A DNA stretch of 39,559 nt. It comes from Candidatus Aenigmatarchaeota archaeon. GTDB taxonomy: Archaea; Aenigmatarchaeota; Aenigmatarchaeia; CG10238-14; SCSR01. The position numbers and the translations under genes were made by a program. This document shows positions 2,537-21,382 of the stretch, piece after piece. The notes under the pieces were generated by a model that did no database searches, had not been told where the DNA came from, and saw nothing but the letters and a program-made list of their open reading frames with translations. The stretch spans positions 1-39,559 of the forward strand of contig JABABT010000024.1 of assembly GCA_014238095.1 (NCBI GenBank). The letters run 5' to 3'. Positions within the stretch are counted from its first letter, which is position 1; every line of letters starts with the position of its first letter.

Positions 2537-2749
2537 TTAATTACATTGAATTGTACCAAGTATTGGATTGTTAAAAGTTTCACAATAACTAGATTTTGTA
2601 AATAAATTATCAGAAAGATATGTCATAAATTCACTTTGTAATAAAACAAACATAACTAATAAAAGTAATAATGAAATTGCAAGTATTATGAATAGGATTT
2701 TCTGAAATCCTACTATTCCTTTATTATTATTATCCAATAATTCCAACAT
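2537..2749 (-). CDS. Small type IV pilin-like protein
   Basis: NNKGIVGFQKILFIILAISLLLLLVMFVLL then short polar tail with two Cys; overlaps the 3' end of the platform gene's operon neighbour. Confidence 0.65.
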   Translation of the reverse strand: MLELLDNNNKGIVGFQKILFIILAISLLLLLVMFVLLQSEFMTYLSDNLFTKSSYCETFNNPILGTIQCN

Positions 2750-4691
2750 CTACTATCCCCTGGAATGCCACAAAAGTGATTATTCCTATTAAAGTAAATA
2801 TGAAAGTACCCATAAATAACCCTTTAGCTATTGTTTTATATCTTTCAATTGGGTCCTCACCATACTTCAAAGTAGAAATTAAAAATGCTAATGATAAAAG
2901 AACTTCAATCATGTAAACACCTACAATTACAGTTAACCATTCTATAGGTACAACTTTATCAATATCACCAAGTACACTAATTAAACCACCATCTCCTATA
3001 GGTAATGATTCTGTAAGTCCTACAGCATCAACGAAAAATGTCGAAACATTAAACAATACTAAAGATAACAGAGCTGAAAGTCCTATAATTATTCCCATAG
3101 CAACAGGAACTAATAATCCCATCATGAAATTCATTTCTGATGTTGTTTCAGACATCATTTCACGTAAAAATGTTTCAACACGACTTACATTTTTCATATA
3201 ATTAGATATTGAAATCATTGCTGAAGCTGTAGTTCTTGATCCTTTCTTTAATGATTCAGAAAAAACTTTCAAAATATTTTTGATTGTGGAAGATGGGTAG
3301 AATTTTATTACACCAACTTCTGGATCAAATATTGATTTTTCAAAAGTATATCCAAAATTTCTTATATTTCTCAAAGCAAGACCAAATAATTCAGAAATTT
3401 TTAGATTTCTGATTTTATTAAGAAGTTTTTCTATAGATGTTTCTACCGAATAACCTGATTGTAAAATCAAACCAAGCTCGAATAAAGAAGTTGCAAATTC
3501 ATTCTCAGTTTCAACAATACCTTTTCTTATTTTATCATTACCTTTGTATGAAAAATATGAATAGAAAACTATTGGTGCAACTATTCCCCATATTATAGAA
3601 TTTCCTCCTAATATTTTTTGTAAAGAAACTACATCTGTAGATGAGAAAATTAAGAAAAATCCAAGAGAGAAAAACCCTATTGATATTAAAATTGCAAATG
3701 GCCATACTTTTATTTTTCTATTTTTTATCATCATTTCTCCTGCTGCATGTGCATCAGGATGATTGGAAACGTCTCGTGACCCAAAGGCCATAGGACGTTT
3801 TGATAACGTATCATTAATTAAAAACCAAACAAGAATTGGTAGAACAATATTGTAAACAATAACTAAAAGATAAGGAGGAACAGCTTCAGTTAAGAAAATT
3901 GTTAAGATTGGAAATAATATTATTGTCAATACTGGTAATGTTATACCCATATAATTTATTATTGCTAATGGTTGGGAAAGTTTTTGAGTATAATTTTTCA
4001 TTCTGTCTGTGTTTCTTTCTAATATTATATTTATAGCTTCTTCATACAATTTACTTCTAGATGATTCAGTTTTGAAAACTGAAGTTCTAAGAATGTCCAT
4101 TGCTTCTGAAAATTCTTGATTTTGTTCTTTCCATTTATCTGCAAATACTTCTAATGCTTGATCTGCATTATCATATTTTCTTAATGATAAATCCCAAGCT
4201 ATTTTTTTTAAATCACGACCAACTACACCTTTTGTATTCATTGATGCAAATATCAATGCATTTTCAAAGTTAGGTGTAAGTCTTAATGAAATTACAATAT
4301 ACAAAACAGAAACTAAAAGATCTGCTGTTGCTCTAATTCTAGTAAACGTTACAACATGATTTAGAAAAACTGTCCAATAAAATGCAATAGCACCTGAACC
4401 ACCTATTGCTAATATTATGAAAATTGAATCTGTATTAAGAAAAATTAAACCAGTTCCAATTATAATTCCAATTATAAAAATCATCAAAGCTGATCTATAA
4501 ATATTTTGAGGAGAAGTTCTATAACCTACGAACTGAAGTTTCTGCCAAATTTCTTGTTCCTTATCTAAACTTAGAGGTATTTTTATTGGTATTTTACCTC
4601 CTAATTTATTAGATATTTTTTCATAGAATGTTGGTTCTCTTTTTATAAGTTCATCTTCCAAATATTTCTGATAATCTCTTGATACAGGCAT
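2730..4691 (-). CDS. Archaeal type IV pilus/archaellum membrane platform protein (FlaJ/TadC type, tandem T2SSF domains)
   Basis: 653 aa with two helix-bundle/TM repeats (e.g. 'ENALIFASMNTKGVVGRDL', 'SVETSIEKLLNKIRNLKISELF'); directly follows a secretion ATPase. Confidence 0.85.
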   Translation of the reverse strand: MPVSRDYQKYLEDELIKREPTFYEKISNKLGGKIPIKIPLSLDKEQEIWQKLQFVGYRTSPQNIYRSALMIFIIGIIIGTGLIFLNTDSIFIILAIGGSGAIAFYWTVFLNHVVTFTRIRATADLLVSVLYIVISLRLTPNFENALIFASMNTKGVVGRDLKKIAWDLSLRKYDNADQALEVFADKWKEQNQEFSEAMDILRTSVFKTESSRSKLYEEAINIILERNTDRMKNYTQKLSQPLAIINYMGITLPVLTIILFPILTIFLTEAVPPYLLVIVYNIVLPILVWFLINDTLSKRPMAFGSRDVSNHPDAHAAGEMMIKNRKIKVWPFAILISIGFFSLGFFLIFSSTDVVSLQKILGGNSIIWGIVAPIVFYSYFSYKGNDKIRKGIVETENEFATSLFELGLILQSGYSVETSIEKLLNKIRNLKISELFGLALRNIRNFGYTFEKSIFDPEVGVIKFYPSSTIKNILKVFSESLKKGSRTTASAMISISNYMKNVSRVETFLREMMSETTSEMNFMMGLLVPVAMGIIIGLSALLSLVLFNVSTFFVDAVGLTESLPIGDGGLISVLGDIDKVVPIEWLTVIVGVYMIEVLLSLAFLISTLKYGEDPIERYKTIAKGLFMGTFIFTLIGIITFVAFQGIVDVGIIG

Positions 4692-5099: not shown

Positions 5100-7349
5100 T
5101 TAATAATTTGTGTTTCTTAATTTTTCTTTATACCATTCCAACCATTTTTCATAAATCATTTTTGGATCAAGAGTACCAACTTCACTTTTTACATTTTCAG
5201 AAATTATATGATACATACTATTACTTATGGTAATCCAATCAGATTCTAATATTTCTGGTCTCTCAAGTTTTACAGACATATCAACCATTTTTTGTTTTAT
5301 ACTAGAACGTAACATTATATTTTCCCAAACTTTATCCCAAGAACCTTTCCATTCACGAACATTATTTGCAATACCATTCAAAACTTCAGATTCTCCATCA
5401 AGTAAAATATCAGTTGGTTTTAATTTATCTTCTTTTGCTGAATATTCCATTAATGGTACAAAACCACCTTCTTCTAAAGGATCATCTTTCCATTTTTTCC
5501 TTACTTCAGTCATTTCAACAACACGTCTAAATCTATGAAGACCATCTGATGATTTCAACATATTAGCAACAATAATTACATCAATAGCTTTGAAACTTGT
5601 TGATTTTACTCCAAGATCATTTACAACTCTATCATAAACTCCATATGGTGACTCACCATGAATAGTGCCTGCTACTACATTTGCAAGAGCACCAATTCTC
5701 ATAGCTTCAAATAATGCAACAGACTCTGTTGATCTAACTTCACCAACAATTAAAACAGAATCACCAAGACGTAATGCTGTTCTAAGTGCTTCTTCTGGTG
5801 GAATTTCTGTTTCAACTTTTGTAATTACTGAACGAGATTTTAATCTACATATATTAAATCCTAATTTTCTCATTGCAACAATAGGTAGTTCTAATGTATC
5901 TTCAACAACAATTATTCTATGTCTTTTCATTATTTCCAACATAATTGAACCCAATAAAGATGATTTACCACTTCCCCTTCCACCAGCAATTAACATTGCA
6001 CGACCACCATCTACAATAAAACTATTGATACCTGAAAACAAGGAACCAAAATAATTACTTTTCATAAACAATGGAAATGTCCATGGTCTTTCTCTATGTC
6101 TTCTAAAAGCATAAGCAAGTCCATCTGGTGAAAGTGTTCTTGTAATAGCAGCAACTCTTGCTCTTCCTGTCGGTGTGTTTAATTCAGTATCAAGTACTGG
6201 ATTTGCTTCATCTAATGGACGTCCAGAAAATAATCTAAATCTAGTTGCCCATGCTTCTGCATCTTCACGTGTTGGTATTAAATTTGTTTCACATTCTTCA
6301 AAATCTTGATGATAAATATATACAGGAGATTGTCCTACTGGAGAATTAATATAGAAATCCTGTATCTTAGGATCGGATATAAGTAATTCTAAAATACCAA
6401 ATCCTGATGTATATCTTACAAGAATTTTAGCTAGATTTTCTAATTCTTCTGGAGTTAATCTAATTCCTTTATTTGTAGCAATATCTTTCAACATATCTCT
6501 ACTAATATTCATAAAAATATCAATTGATTTATTAGAATCCATAAAATCATTTTCAGTTGGTTTATGTTCTGACATATAATGTCTTGCCTTATCAAGTAAA
6601 CTATATTGTTCTTCAGAAAGTTTGAATTCTTGTGGAGTTATATGATAAAGTCTACGTACTTTTTCTGGTATTTGAAAAATTTCAACTAAAGTATTCCCAA
6701 CATAATATTTTTCAAGAACTTTTCCATTCTTTGGCGGCATAGCCATATAACGTGTTAACATAAAATTTGGACGAATAACTGGTGTGAAAAATTCTCTATA
6801 AAGTGTTCTATCACCAAACTTGAAATCTTTTAATCTAGGAATAACACTTCTAATCAGAGTTGTGTTTTCAAGAATATTTAACATTGGTTGTAAACAATTA
6901 ATAAGAAAATATTCATGAGATTTTTGATCTGGACCAATTGTATTTGAAAGTCTATTCTCTGTATTTTCCATAACATTTAATCTAACATAAGCTCCAATAG
7001 GATCTTTTCTCAAAACTTCTAATATTAGGAATTGTAAGTCTGCAAGTCTTCTTGGTGTAAAATGAGAAGAATTTGAACCTTCTATTTTTTCAATACTTAA
7101 CAATCTATCTTCATTCAATATTTTATTATAAGCTTGTGAAATTTCACGAAGCATTTTTGTTTGATTAAAATTATATTCATTTTCTCTAGTTTCAGCAAGA
7201 ATAACTCTGCTAATATCTTTTACTTCAAGTAATTTATCAATAACAATTGCCATAGCACCTTCAGAATCTTCAATACTTGGTGGTATTGCCCAATTAGTTG
7301 CATTAATTCTAAGAGTTCCTTCTTCAACCTTATAATCAATTTCTACCAT
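5100..7349 (-). CDS. Type II/IV secretion system ATPase (FlaI/TadA/VirB11-like)
   Basis: Walker A GGRGSGKSS, Walker B-like DSVLIVGEVRS, Asp-box VVEDTLELP, His-box AGTIHGESP. Confidence 0.93.
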   Translation of the reverse strand: MVEIDYKVEEGTLRINATNWAIPPSIEDSEGAMAIVIDKLLEVKDISRVILAETRENEYNFNQTKMLREISQAYNKILNEDRLLSIEKIEGSNSSHFTPRRLADLQFLILEVLRKDPIGAYVRLNVMENTENRLSNTIGPDQKSHEYFLINCLQPMLNILENTTLIRSVIPRLKDFKFGDRTLYREFFTPVIRPNFMLTRYMAMPPKNGKVLEKYYVGNTLVEIFQIPEKVRRLYHITPQEFKLSEEQYSLLDKARHYMSEHKPTENDFMDSNKSIDIFMNISRDMLKDIATNKGIRLTPEELENLAKILVRYTSGFGILELLISDPKIQDFYINSPVGQSPVYIYHQDFEECETNLIPTREDAEAWATRFRLFSGRPLDEANPVLDTELNTPTGRARVAAITRTLSPDGLAYAFRRHRERPWTFPLFMKSNYFGSLFSGINSFIVDGGRAMLIAGGRGSGKSSLLGSIMLEIMKRHRIIVVEDTLELPIVAMRKLGFNICRLKSRSVITKVETEIPPEEALRTALRLGDSVLIVGEVRSTESVALFEAMRIGALANVVAGTIHGESPYGVYDRVVNDLGVKSTSFKAIDVIIVANMLKSSDGLHRFRRVVEMTEVRKKWKDDPLEEGGFVPLMEYSAKEDKLKPTDILLDGESEVLNGIANNVREWKGSWDKVWENIMLRSSIKQKMVDMSVKLERPEILESDWITISNSMYHIISENVKSEVGTLDPKMIYEKWLEWYKEKLRNTNY

Positions 7350-8309: not shown

Positions 8310-9092
8310 ATGTCATTATTTGGAAAAAAGAAGAATAAAGGTAAATTAAGACCTGGAAAAGGATTTGATCCTATTGCTAGAGTTAGAGAAATGGCTGCAC
8401 GTGGATTTTCAGAACCAGAAATGATTGATGTTTTAAGAAGGGATGGATTTGGAGCTAATGAAATTGATAATGCATTAACACAAGCATTGAGAATAGGTGT
8501 TGGACAAAACCAAAAAATGCAACAAAATAATTATCAAATGCAAAAACCTCAAATGCAACAACCTCAAATGCAACAACCTCAAATGCAACAACCTCAAATG
8601 CAACAACAAATGCAAAAACCTCAAATGCAAAGTAACCGAAATAATGAAAATGAACTTCCAACAATTGATTCTATAACCTCAATGACAGGACAACCAAATC
8701 AATTGAGTGGATCTATGCCACAAATACCAGAAACAAGTTTACCAGAAGGATATTATTCACAAACATATTCAAGTGAAGATTATGTTGATTATGTAGTACA
8801 ACAAAGACTTGGAGAAGTTACAGAAAAAGTAAAAGAATTTCAAGAATATTATAAAAAATTAAATAATAAAATAAGTGAATTAACAGATAATTTAAAAAAT
8901 ATGGAAACAAAATCAGAACCTAATAAAAATGCTGTTAATAATAAAATAGAAAATTTTACTTCATCAGTTTCAGATATAGATAATAGATTAAGTGGTTTAG
9001 AAAAGGCTTTCAAAGAAACACTTCCAGATTTAATTGATTCAGTACGTACTTTAAGTGATCTTGTTCAAAAAATAAAAAAAGATAAAGAGTAA
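8310..9092 (+). CDS. N-terminal UBA-like helical domain, MQQPQ repeat linker and C-terminal coiled coil; hypothetical
   Basis: Intact 260-aa ORF; 'REMAARGFSEPEMIDVLRRDGFGANEIDNALTQAL' looks UBA-like; M-Q-Q-P-Q tandem repeats. Confidence 0.75.
   Translation: MSLFGKKKNKGKLRPGKGFDPIARVREMAARGFSEPEMIDVLRRDGFGANEIDNALTQALRIGVGQNQKMQQNNYQMQKPQMQQPQMQQPQMQQPQMQQQMQKPQMQSNRNNENELPTIDSITSMTGQPNQLSGSMPQIPETSLPEGYYSQTYSSEDYVDYVVQQRLGEVTEKVKEFQEYYKKLNNKISELTDNLKNMETKSEPNKNAVNNKIENFTSSVSDIDNRLSGLEKAFKETLPDLIDSVRTLSDLVQKIKKDKE
8538..8630 (+). repeat. In-frame 15-bp tandem repeat (atgcaacaacctcaa) encoding MQQPQ
   Basis: ATGCAAAAACCTCAA then four ATGCAACAACCTCAA units, a truncated unit, ATGCAAAAACCTCAA and ATGCAA. 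Confidence 0.9.
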
Positions 9093-9523: not shown

Positions 9524-10195
9524 TTAATTTTTATAATATTGTCTTACTTCTTCTATGTCTGAGTATGAAATTTCATATAGATTTGATAACATAGGATTTT
9601 TTGGAGGATTTAGTTGTGTTGTATATGTTGGAGGAGGTAACATAGGTAAATTTTTTGGAGAAGGTAACATATGAGTTTCTGGTGAAAGTGTAGATTTTTC
9701 CTCATTATAATTATTTTTTACTTTATAATCTTTAATTTGTTTTTTGAAATAGGATGATATTTTTTCAACTAATTTAGGAATTATTTTATCATTAACATAT
9801 TCTTCCATTGAATTATATCCTTTGAATTCCCAGTAAGGTTTATCTAAATTTTCTTGTTTTTGTTTGTAGGATTTAGAATTTTTTAATAATTCATTTAATT
9901 GTTTTGCTGTTTCGTATTCTTTTAATTCTTCTAATGATGGTTTATCAGTATTTGAATATTGTTGATTATTAGAATTTTCTGGTTTTAAAAATGTTTTACC
10001 AAATAAAGTTGGAGGAGACCTAACAGGTTGATTATATTGTTCGTTTGAATTATTTCCCATTGTAAAATATATAGGTAATTTTATATTTTTGGGGTTTGCA
10101 TCATATCTCAAATTGTCGATATTATTTATTGAATCATTAGCTATCCTTATTCTTTCATCTAAATATTCTGGTGTTTCTATTAATTTTTGTTCCAT
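9524..10195 (-). CDS. Hypothetical cytoplasmic protein with Pro-rich segment
   Basis: 223-aa ORF; promoter-like AAAACTTTATATATT upstream (minus strand, about 10230). Confidence 0.65.
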   Translation of the reverse strand: MEQKLIETPEYLDERIRIANDSINNIDNLRYDANPKNIKLPIYFTMGNNSNEQYNQPVRSPPTLFGKTFLKPENSNNQQYSNTDKPSLEELKEYETAKQLNELLKNSKSYKQKQENLDKPYWEFKGYNSMEEYVNDKIIPKLVEKISSYFKKQIKDYKVKNNYNEEKSTLSPETHMLPSPKNLPMLPPPTYTTQLNPPKNPMLSNLYEISYSDIEEVRQYYKN

Positions 10196-10259: not shown

Positions 10260-10943
10260 TTATGTAACTTCTCTTAAAACATGATTAAGTTTAATTTTTT
10301 CTTCTTGTTTTTTTGCTAGTTCTTCTTCTCTTTTTATTATATTTTTATCTATAGATTTTAATTTTGCTGATGTTAAGTCTTTATCATTCAATTTTTGAGA
10401 TTTTAATTCTTCTATTATTTGTTCTAATTTTATCATTCTATCTGATATTTGTTTATCTCTTTTTTTATAAGAATTGAATATTTGAGTAGTAGCATTAAGT
10501 TTAATGAAATAACCTTTTGTATACAAAATAGTACCAACAACAAAAATTAAAACGAATATTAAAAAGGCAAAATTTCCAAGACCATATAATGCATAGCTGA
10601 TATAACCTACCCAACCAATAAATAATGCTGATAAAGAAACTAAAAGAGATATAAGATGTTCTACATTTCCTGCACCAGAAAATATTCTTAATGTTCTAAG
10701 TAAACCAAGAAAAATAGCATAAATAGCAATTGTTGGTATTATAGCATTAATTATAAGTTGTCTTGGTTCATTTAACCATTCTTTATCAAAACCAAATAAT
10801 TGTACCCAAATATATTCACAATAACCATTTTGTGTACATGTATTAGAAAAATTAGTACTTTGAGCAGAAACAATTATAGGTGATACTAATAATGCTACCA
10901 TGAATACAGAGAAGAAAATTGATATTGGATTTTTTGTTTTCAT
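10260..10943 (-). CDS. Signal-peptide-bearing multi-TM protein with C-terminal coiled coil; local paralogous family
   Basis: Signal MKTKNPISIFFSVFMVALLVSPIIVSAQS; 4-TM core; coiled-coil tail; SD-like AGGAGA upstream. Confidence 0.75.
   Translation of the reverse strand: MKTKNPISIFFSVFMVALLVSPIIVSAQSTNFSNTCTQNGYCEYIWVQLFGFDKEWLNEPRQLIINAIIPTIAIYAIFLGLLRTLRIFSGAGNVEHLISLLVSLSALFIGWVGYISYALYGLGNFAFLIFVLIFVVGTILYTKGYFIKLNATTQIFNSYKKRDKQISDRMIKLEQIIEELKSQKLNDKDLTSAKLKSIDKNIIKREEELAKKQEEKIKLNHVLREVT
10860..10943 (-). repeat. 84-bp signal-peptide cassette, copy A (inverted relative to copy B)
   Basis: Reverse complement matches 12170-12253 at 83 of 84 positions (TCA versus ACA at codon 8 is the single difference). 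Confidence 0.95.
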
Positions 10944-10947
10944 TATA

Positions 10948-11520
10948 TTATCTCCTTAACTTACCTGAAATTAATGCAACTATTATCATTAATACCATAA
11001 ATATAATTAATGCCGCAACAATTATAACTATATCGGAATTTGGAGATGGTGTATCTGCTTCAATTCCAGTTGCTATTGGGTTTCCTATATTTGTAAAAAC
11101 TCCTACTAATCCACTTGTTACAAATAATCCAATAACAATTGCTAACATTAACCATACTAAACCTGATGACTTTAATTTTTCACCTAAAACAGCACCAACA
11201 TTTGGATAGAAAACAGCTGCAATAATAACTGCTGTTATCATAAGAAATATCCAAACAGTCGATTGTAATAAAAATGTTGTAATTTCTGTTGTTAAACTGA
11301 AACCTACAATTAGTGGAAATCCTATAAATAATAAACCAATTGATACTGCAATAATTCCATTAATTCCAACACTATCACCAAGCATATGACTTTTCTTTAA
11401 CAAAGCAAAAATTATTAAAGACACAATTAAAAATGGAAGTAAGAAATCGTATACTCCAATATTTATTAAATTTTCAATTGCTGTTTCAAATAATGTTGTG
11501 TTATCTGCTGCACTTGCCAT
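10948..11520 (-). CDS. Multi-TM membrane protein, local paralogous family
   Basis: 'ENLINIGVYDFLLPFLIVSLIIFALLKKSHMLGDSVGINGIIAVSIGLLFIGFP' core shared with the 12170 protein. Confidence 0.75.
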   Translation of the reverse strand: MASAADNTTLFETAIENLINIGVYDFLLPFLIVSLIIFALLKKSHMLGDSVGINGIIAVSIGLLFIGFPLIVGFSLTTEITTFLLQSTVWIFLMITAVIIAAVFYPNVGAVLGEKLKSSGLVWLMLAIVIGLFVTSGLVGVFTNIGNPIATGIEADTPSPNSDIVIIVAALIIFMVLMIIVALISGKLRR

Positions 11521-11578
11521 ATTAATCTAATAATATAAGAATAGATAAAGTTTTAAACCCATTATTTTTATTGAAAAA

Positions 11579-12109
11579 TTATACTCCTTTTAATCCAAGT
11601 AATTTTTCTCTTTCTTTTCTCATTTTCAAAATTTCATCTTCATATTCTGATGCTGCTGCATAATTTCCTTTATTACGAGCTTCTTGTAATTTTTTATATC
11701 TATCTTCCATATGTTTATCTAATTTTTTAAGTGTTGATTTGCTATTTGATAGTTGATATAATTCTTGAGAATTAAATACTGCTTTACCTCTACCAATAGC
11801 CCAAATGATACCACCAACAATAAATAGAACAATAAATAATCCAAATGCAAAAGCTCCTGTTAATGCTGATATTTGAGTAATCAATAATCCCCATACATCA
11901 GTAACTGCAACTAATATAGCAATAATCAAAGATACAATAATATTAATTTTTTTTGTTGTCTTATCTGTAGGTGGACCAAATATTTTTAACATACTTAAGG
12001 TTCCCCAAAATATTGCGAAAATTAACATGAAGGGTAATAAAAATTGTACCAATAATGTATTTGGTTCTATAGTTCCTATTGATCCAAATAATTCAAATAT
12101 GTTTGCCAT
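11579..12109 (-). CDS. Multi-TM membrane protein with C-terminal coiled coil, local paralogous family
   Basis: 'LLVQFLLPFMLIFAIFWGTLSMLKIFG...KKINIIVSLIIAILVAV' core; charged helical C-terminus. Confidence 0.75.
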   Translation of the reverse strand: MANIFELFGSIGTIEPNTLLVQFLLPFMLIFAIFWGTLSMLKIFGPPTDKTTKKINIIVSLIIAILVAVTDVWGLLITQISALTGAFAFGLFIVLFIVGGIIWAIGRGKAVFNSQELYQLSNSKSTLKKLDKHMEDRYKKLQEARNKGNYAAASEYEDEILKMRKEREKLLGLKGV

Positions 12110-12169
12110 AAATAATATTGGATAGTAAAACTAATAAGCTTAAATGTTTATGGAACATATTTTTATTTA

Positions 12170-12253
12170 ATGAAAACAAAAAATCCAATAACAATTTTCT
12201 TCTCTGTATTCATGGTAGCATTATTAGTATCACCTATAATTGTTTCTGCTCAA
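12170..12253 (+). repeat. 84-bp signal-peptide cassette, copy B
   Basis: See copy A at 10860-10943; similarity begins at the ATG and ends at the codon after the predicted cleavage site. Confidence 0.95.
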
Positions 12254-12823
12254 TCTCCATTTGAAAGAGTTATTGATAATTTAATTGATCTTGGATTCTT
12301 TGGATTTGTATTACCATTTTTACTTACAGCAGCAATATTTTATGGTTTACTTAGAAAATCACAAATATTTGGAGACCCAGCATCAAACGTTTCAATAAAT
12401 GCAATTGTTGCAATAACAGCTGGATTTATGGTTTGGGCATATCCTACAATTTCTGGTGTTGATGTAGCTGAACAACTTAGTAAATTCTTTTTCCAAGGAG
12501 CAATAGCTATACTTGGAGTTATTGTAAGCATACTTATTGCAGGAATATTTTTACCTAAAGATCTTCCTAGTGAAATTTCTAAACATATTAAATCTGGAAA
12601 AGGTGTCGCATATATTGTAATTGGAGGTTTAATTGTTGGAATGATTGTTCTATTAAGTAGTGGAGTAGGAGAATTTCTAATACCTAATCTTTCTGGAGGA
12701 CCATTAGTAATTAATCCTGGATATGGTAGTGGATTAAGCTCTGATGATATACTTACAATAATTGTTGTTATTGGAATGATGGTTGTTGTTGGACTTATAG
12801 CAAAAGGTGAAAGTAAAAATTAA
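12170..12823 (+). CDS. Signal-peptide-bearing multi-TM membrane protein, local paralogous family
   Basis: Signal MKTKNPITIFFSVFMVALLVSPIIVSAQS; 'NLIDLGFFGFVLPFLLTAAIFYGLLRKSQIFGD...INAIVAITAGFMVWAYP' core. Confidence 0.78.
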   Translation: MKTKNPITIFFSVFMVALLVSPIIVSAQSPFERVIDNLIDLGFFGFVLPFLLTAAIFYGLLRKSQIFGDPASNVSINAIVAITAGFMVWAYPTISGVDVAEQLSKFFFQGAIAILGVIVSILIAGIFLPKDLPSEISKHIKSGKGVAYIVIGGLIVGMIVLLSSGVGEFLIPNLSGGPLVINPGYGSGLSSDDILTIIVVIGMMVVVGLIAKGESKN

Positions 12824-12832
12824 GTGTATTTT

Positions 12833-13387
12833 ATGTCTAGTTTAGAAAATGTAATTAATAATTTACAATCTGCTGGAATATTTGAATTTTTCTTACCTTT
12901 TATTCTAATTTTTGCTGTTGTTTTTGGGTTAATGCAAAAGGTTGGAATTTTTGGAGATAAAAAAGAAAGTGAAGTAAGAAAATTAAATGCATTGATTGCT
13001 TTTGTTTTTGCTGCATTCATTATGATTTATCCAACAACAAATGATTTAGTATTTAATTTAACAGATTATATAGCAAATTTTGTTGGAGGAACATTCATTT
13101 TCATACTTGGTATAATTTCATTTATGATTATGGCATTTATGATTTCTAATGCTTCAGGTGAAAAAAATGATGATAAAAGTAAATTTAAACTTGGTAGTAC
13201 GTCTATTGGTATAGCATTAGTTTTAGTTATAGCATTATTTTTAACAAGTGGTGGAGTTTTATCATTAGGTGGATTACAATTTAATTCTAATTTTAATTTA
13301 AATTTTGGAAATATAGATCCTAATGTTATAGCATTAATTGGTGTGTTAGTTGCAGTAGGTGTTGGTATTTGGTATTTAACTAAATAA
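12833..13387 (+). CDS. Multi-TM membrane protein, local paralogous family
   Basis: ORF track gives GTG at 12824; ATG at 12833 (MSSLENVINNLQSAG) is more plausible. 'FFLPFILIFAVVFGLMQKVGIFGD...LNALIAFVFAAFIMIYP' core. Confidence 0.75.
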   Translation: MSSLENVINNLQSAGIFEFFLPFILIFAVVFGLMQKVGIFGDKKESEVRKLNALIAFVFAAFIMIYPTTNDLVFNLTDYIANFVGGTFIFILGIISFMIMAFMISNASGEKNDDKSKFKLGSTSIGIALVLVIALFLTSGGVLSLGGLQFNSNFNLNFGNIDPNVIALIGVLVAVGVGIWYLTK

Positions 13388-20332: not shown

Positions 20333-21382
20333 TTACAAATCTTTTAATCCTGATTCTTCAATTTTGAATATTGCTTCTCCTTCTGGTAAATTTGCTGCAT
20401 CCATTAATTTTGCAATTCTTGATCCTGCTCTTCCTTTTCTGAAATAAAGTCTATAAGTTGCTTGATGTGCTAATACATGTCCTCCAATTGGAACTGTTGG
20501 GTCTCCAAATAATATATCTGGTCTAGCCATAACTTGATTTGTAATATAAACAGCAACATTATGTGCATCTGCTATTTTTTGTAGTACATGTAAATGTTTA
20601 TTTAATTTTTGTTGTCTTGGAGCAAGTTCACCACGTCCAACAAAATCTGATCTAAAATGTGACATTAATGAATCAATAATAACTAATCCAATATTGTTTT
20701 TTTCTATTAATTCTATAGCCTTTTCAGTAAGCAACATTTGATGTTCAGAATTATATGCACGTGCTACATGAACATTTTTCAAAGTTTTTTCTGGATCTAA
20801 TCCTCTAGCTTTTGATATTTGTAATATTCTCATTGGTGAAAATGTATTTTCAGTGTCAATAAATAAACAACCTTTTTCTAAACCACCTTTATCTTTTGGT
20901 AATTGTACATTTACTGCAAGATTAAATCCAAGTTGAGATTTTCCACTTGCGAATTGTCCATATACTTCTGTTATTCCTTGTGTTTCAATACCACCACCCA
21001 ACAAAGTATCTAAGTTTTTACTTCCTGTGGTTATTTTTAATGCTGCTATTTTTCTTTCTAAAACTTTATCAGCTGTTTCAAAACCAATATCAAGTTTTTG
21101 ACGTATAGAATGAATTATTTTTTGTGCTGTTGATTCTCCAATTTCAGCTAAAGCTGCAAGTTCTTTTGGAGATGTAACAGCAATTGTCATTGGATCTGTA
21201 TAACCAATATCTGTAAGTTTTTCAGCAGTTACTGAACCAACACCATCTATATCTTTAATATCAAATTTTTTATTTTTTGTTAATATTACTTCTTCATTAA
21301 TTAATTCTTCCTTTTTTTCTTCTGATTTAACATCAGGTTTTATTAATTCATTTTCTTTTTTCTTTTTATTCATTATATACAC
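20333..21382 (-). CDS. radA: DNA repair/recombination protein RadA
   Basis: HhH domain 'VGSVTAEKLTDIGYTDPMTIAVTSPKELA'; Walker A 'GQFASGKSQ'; 'ITNQVMARPDILFGDPTVPIGGHVLAH'. A start at 21373 (MNKKKKENE) is possible. Confidence 0.96.
   Translation of the reverse strand: MYIMNKKKKENELIKPDVKSEEKKEELINEEVILTKNKKFDIKDIDGVGSVTAEKLTDIGYTDPMTIAVTSPKELAALAEIGESTAQKIIHSIRQKLDIGFETADKVLERKIAALKITTGSKNLDTLLGGGIETQGITEVYGQFASGKSQLGFNLAVNVQLPKDKGGLEKGCLFIDTENTFSPMRILQISKARGLDPEKTLKNVHVARAYNSEHQMLLTEKAIELIEKNNIGLVIIDSLMSHFRSDFVGRGELAPRQQKLNKHLHVLQKIADAHNVAVYITNQVMARPDILFGDPTVPIGGHVLAHQATYRLYFRKGRAGSRIAKLMDAANLPEGEAIFKIEESGLKDL

Follow-up and report, generated by a model that had tools for sequence, protein, structure and literature searches.

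A probable one-off inversion with a duplicated leader in a secretion or pilus-like locus of an Aenigmatarchaeota genome

Two adjacent membrane protein genes (A and B) in the small genome of a Candidatus Aenigmatarchaeota archaeon (DPANN) are inverted relative to all known relatives, and by sequence comparison this is a clear evolutionary rearrangement. The inverted segment lies between near-identical copies of an 84-nt leader, one of which is fused in frame to the neighboring gene C. Very probably, a single inversion that duplicated breakpoint sequence gave rise to the arrangement within this lineage. The result is best read as a breakpoint footprint together with a chimeric gene and is unlikely to act as a switch.

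Gene content and setting of the locus

The window, that is, the whole stretch of DNA that was analyzed (contig C36; 39,559 nt), belongs to a draft assembly of 516 kb in 39 contigs that is 93% complete. Its relatives carry the label Aenigmarchaeota in the public collection, and a scan of public genome contigs returned two Aenigmarchaeota records, neither of them close to the window. The gene coordinates given in the initial annotation were right, and the relevant features are as follows.

2730..4691, minus strand: putative membrane platform protein, next to the TadA/FlaI-like ATPase
5100..7349, minus strand: TadA/FlaI-like secretion ATPase, in the same conserved locus as genes A to E
8310..9092, plus strand: conserved coiled-coil protein gene, which in relatives precedes genes A to D
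9524..10195, minus strand: gene F, co-directional with E and following it
10260..10943, minus strand: gene E, signal peptide plus membrane protein with three transmembrane (TM) segments, now behind B
10860..10948, minus strand: inverted repeat, left arm, containing the leader (signal peptide) of gene E, ATG at 10943-10941
10948..11520, minus strand: gene B, 5-TM membrane protein, inverted in the window
11579..12109, minus strand: gene A, 3-TM membrane protein with a charged tail, inverted in the window
12110..12169: A-C intergenic region, 60 nt, predicted divergent promoter region, presumably the former E-A intergenic region
12165..12253, plus strand: inverted repeat, right arm, containing the E leader copy that is in frame with gene C, ATG at 12170
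12170..12823, plus strand: gene C, chimera of the E signal peptide (residues 1-28) and a C-family membrane protein (from residue 29, SPFE...)
12833..13387, plus strand: gene D, 5-TM paralog downstream of C, as in relatives

The start of gene D is at 12833 (ATG) or 12824 (GTG). The ATPase encoded at 5100..7349 matched PF00437 (T2SSE family) above the cut-off (5.7e-16) and TIGR03819 at 1e-34, which is under the curated cut-off of that model. The protein encoded at 2730..4691 had no match in Pfam or NCBIfam; its gene adjoins the ATPase gene in relatives too, and its position and length suggest that it is probably TadC/FlaJ-like. As read from the sequences, the function of the A-E products is placed no finer than a secretion or pilus-like locus.

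The mature E and C proteins had initially been described as strongly divergent. They are indeed distant, but they are not unrelated, because sequence comparison and a tree identified A to E as paralogs of one membrane protein family. None of the five had a Pfam match above the cut-off, and C and E had none in NCBIfam. Hydropathy analysis called five TM segments in B and D, three in A, three in mature E, and four in mature C together with one further hydrophobic stretch, and positive-inside charge counts placed the N-terminus outside for A, B and D. A further C-family paralog is encoded elsewhere in the genome (G000:C14:8586-8978). A structure model of C, based on a nine-row alignment, was all helical and of low confidence (pLDDT 65, pTM 0.47), gave no meaningful PDB match and was set aside.

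The locus resembles the type IV pilus-like dark-matter islands of DPANN archaea (PMC6393860), in which numerous small, unannotated proteins, membrane-bound or secreted, accompany type IV pilus or Tad components. The leader-bearing proteins of those islands were called diverse pilins, whereas the A-E proteins have 3-5 TM segments and are not pilin-like; the likeness is one of description.

The inverted repeat

A repeat search identified two arms of 89 nt in opposite orientation, 1216 nt apart and matched at 87 of 89 positions (98% complementary). Exact inverted matches in the window reached a length of 62 nt, compared with maxima of 16-22 nt in 20 Markov shuffles. Within the arms, the 28 codons from the ATG through Ala-Gln are identical at 83 of 84 nucleotides, including third codon positions, which confirms the shared gene starts noted in the initial annotation; the sole difference is TCA/ACA (Ser/Thr). 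There were 0 differences at about 19 synonymous sites, so that dS between the two leader copies is below about 0.16.

The similarity ends directly after Ala-Gln on the downstream side and reaches no more than 5 nt upstream of the ATG. The upstream flanks of the two arms have only TAATG in common, next to the leader, and this short sequence is possibly microhomology at the outer junction. No third copy of the repeat was present in the genome, and a search of viral contigs with the leader DNA gave no match.

Gene order in relatives

C, E and A served as queries against relatives up to the same order, and the loci found were then read. In 29 related genomes and in record L058, C lies behind a co-directional B-type gene. 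The count covers relatives with C and its upstream neighbor on one contig; in a few of them, B is divergent and its score against C slightly exceeds that against B. A upstream and D downstream are also retained in several relatives. A and B lie on the strand opposite to C in the window alone. The tree placed the window genes B, C and E in the B, C and E clades with support values of 0.994, 0.848 and 0.979, respectively, and placed A and D less well. The E clade consisted of the window and genomes G008, G007, G005 and G002, with the G008 gene as sister to the window E.

When the segment between the repeats was flipped in silico, all frames remained intact and E became divergent from a run of A>B>C>D, which is equal to the order found in G008. 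Because the flip restores this order, a single inversion with ends exactly at the two repeats leads from a G008-like order to that of the window. The flip product predicted in the initial annotation, with A-B running into C-D, is the conserved, ancestral arrangement in relatives. A starting state with divergent E is taken from G008 as its sole basis, as E is divergent from A only there and lies upstream on the same strand in G005, G007 and G002. The divergent E-A intergenic region of G008 is 72 nt long; its comparison with the A-C intergenic DNA of the window was not significant (660 of 2000 shuffles scored equally high) and is uninformative at such divergence.

Donor and recipient of the leader

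The leader was absent from all 20 C orthologs whose N-termini were read in detail. The closest of them start with MVSPFETV (G007 and G004) or MASPFETA (G008), following the pattern M-x-S-P-F-E, and the window C reads ...VSAQ-SPFERV. The leader is joined to C in frame at codon 3, with its last residue standing at the place of the second codon of C. Moreover, each of the E orthologs in G008, G007, G005 and G002 starts with its own leader-like sequence. Since C orthologs lack the leader and E orthologs have their own, E is identified as the donor and C as the recipient. In the uninverted arrangement the leader is single-copy at the family level, the compared genomes all belonging outside the genus.

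These observations also bear on the alternative proposed in the initial annotation, gene conversion, taken here to act on two ancient leaders of equal function. An identity of 83/84 that includes third positions would be in keeping with conversion, but C orthologs without a leader provide no ancient pair to homogenize, and a recent origin suffices for 0 differences at about 19 synonymous sites. Gene conversion is thus unneeded as the source of the identity, which recent duplication explains, and we consider it very improbable.

At the other end of the segment, 4 nt separate the end of B from the ATG of E, with AAGGAGAT in front; in most relatives, 2-13 nt separate the end of B from C. As this spacing matches the B-C arrangement in relatives, E occupies the former translation start of C. 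The AAGGAGAT in the 3' end of B is probably the ancestral ribosome-binding site of C, which now stands before E.

A proposed one-off inversion that duplicated breakpoint sequence

We propose that a 1.2-kb segment comprising the E-A promoter region, A and B was inverted inside the conserved TadA/FlaI-type secretion or pilus-like locus, with one breakpoint in the E leader and the other at the C start codon. The 84-nt leader would have been duplicated in the process, as by staggered-break repair or template switching, leaving one copy on E and the other in frame on C at codon 3. C would have gained the old promoter side, the start codon and the signal peptide of E, and E would have come to lie behind B, at the old ribosome-binding site of C. 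An inverted duplicate is present at both ends of the inverted segment, and the repeat would be the footprint of the inversion event. Occasional re-flipping by RadA-type homologous recombination might still occur.

Predicted cleavage of the chimera between VSA and QSPFE would leave C almost unchanged. The fusion may have been tolerated because cleavage after VSA would nearly restore the ancestral N-terminus, which was probably already outside, and because the N-out topology of the family would suit a cleavable leader.

The same final structure would result from two steps, in which the E leader was copied onto C by ectopic conversion or a short duplication and a single inversion by homologous recombination came later. 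This sequence of steps overlaps with the one-off inversion in outcome and differs in the order of events. The sequences compared, which come from beyond the genus, would be compatible with the leader having been copied either first or with the inversion. Homologous recombination would explain an exchange that respects both start codons, and an inverted copy first with inversion later was also argued for Helicobacter pylori (PMC3046158). However, two events are invoked where one suffices, and no intermediate was seen among the relatives examined. We regard the two-step order as possible but rather unlikely.

The junctions of the proposed one-off inversion are taken from an assembled contig of the draft genome, and with 39 contigs an assembly or amplification chimera might be suspected. 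Two independent junctions would then both need to preserve ribosome-binding sites as well as reading frames. Unlike a copied artifact, the two arms also show a single-base difference in their coding part. A chimera of this sort is extremely improbable.

Footprint or switch

The initial annotation interpreted the segment as invertible and as a candidate for phase variation. The inversion did occur and the repeats do bound the inverted segment, but a phase-variation switch is not likely, given no recombinase match, no second orientation and no OFF state. If the segment were a reversible switch, homologous recombination between the arms would flip it within present-day populations. The orientation would then decide whether E or C-D lies downstream of A-B, and which genes lie behind the opposite promoter. 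The copies of the 84-nt near-perfect inverted repeat are 1.2 kb apart, all frames are intact in both orientations, and what we take from its sequence to be a RadA-like recombinase is encoded at 20333-21382, all of which would favor such flipping. In addition, there are archaeal populations in which a minority carries inversions bounded by inverted gene duplications, for example 17% or more in Pyrobaculum oguniense (PMC3558965).

However, integrase/Xer (PF00589) and resolvase/invertase (PF00239) models found no match in the 93% complete genome, in a search that gave matches in 14 of 14 and 10 of 14 control genomes, respectively. The assembly contains one orientation alone. The comparison with relatives suggested in the initial annotation did reveal the other orientation, in the genomes counted above, but uniformly so and with C genes that lack the repeat, as expected for a single event. 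Moreover, E, A-B and C-D each stand behind a predicted promoter region in either orientation. A flip would swap E with C-D and turn no gene off, because the divergent promoter region is inside the segment. A reversible switch is accordingly improbable. We likewise give little credence to the idea that the leader repeats are active recombination sites at which a RadA-mediated flip swaps E with C-D behind A-B, so that a secretion or pilus-like machine at the cell surface would exist with two different subunit stoichiometries.

No XerA was detected in this genome (no PF00589 match); the gene may truly have been lost, or it may be encoded in the 7% that the assembly lacks.

Comparison with known systems

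Duplication associated with inversion was reported in Helicobacter pylori by Furuta et al. (2011), as related in PMC4671568. There, as in the window, inversion leaves an inverted duplicate of the breakpoint sequence and changes or creates genes. The window differs in that it belongs to an archaeon, has a very short duplicate (84 nt) and yields a paralog with an in-frame signal peptide fusion. Staggered-break inversions in Drosophila (PMC5080602) are likewise accompanied by inverted duplications that stem from one breakpoint and are confined to the derived arrangement. Those are eukaryotic chromosomal inversions, whereas the window segment is a 1.2-kb part of a gene cluster in a prokaryote.

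Invertible promoters or invertons, such as fimS, are similar to the window in that inverted repeats flank a promoter-bearing segment (PMC5903667). Unlike these, the window has no recombinase match, contains whole genes in the segment with the promoter region for both directions inside, and is seen in one orientation. Inversions were not found in any of the 6 archaeal data sets covered by the inverton survey (PMC5903667). In the archaeon Pyrobaculum oguniense, the segments are also bounded by inverted gene duplications, but they are 22-173 kb long and both orientations occur in reads, whereas the window segment is 1.2 kb long and has one assembled orientation (PMC3558965). A literature search on short-homology recombination in Sulfolobus returned nothing useful.

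The locus is a well-resolved case of a membrane protein gaining a cleavable (predicted) signal peptide by rearrangement, in which an inversion breakpoint copies the leader of a neighbor. Near-identical inverted repeats around genes need not indicate a phase-variation switch, and gene order in relatives can help to tell a footprint from a switch.

Other observations

The position and strand of E relative to A vary among L042 (3869-4561), L043 (4310-4936), L040 (7310-7993) and L039 (5694-6296), with E upstream on the same strand in three and divergent in G008, and the E edge of the locus rearranges often among relatives. In G008, the place of gene F is taken by a small ORF that shows weak similarity in a Pro/Met-rich stretch (E=0.003, from one pairwise comparison). 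An AT-rich tandem-repeat stretch lies near the contig end (38504-38640). Within the coiled-coil gene (8310-9092), positions 8534-8630 form an in-frame, Met/Gln/Pro-rich tandem repeat of about 6.7 copies of a 15-nt unit, the copy number of which could vary.
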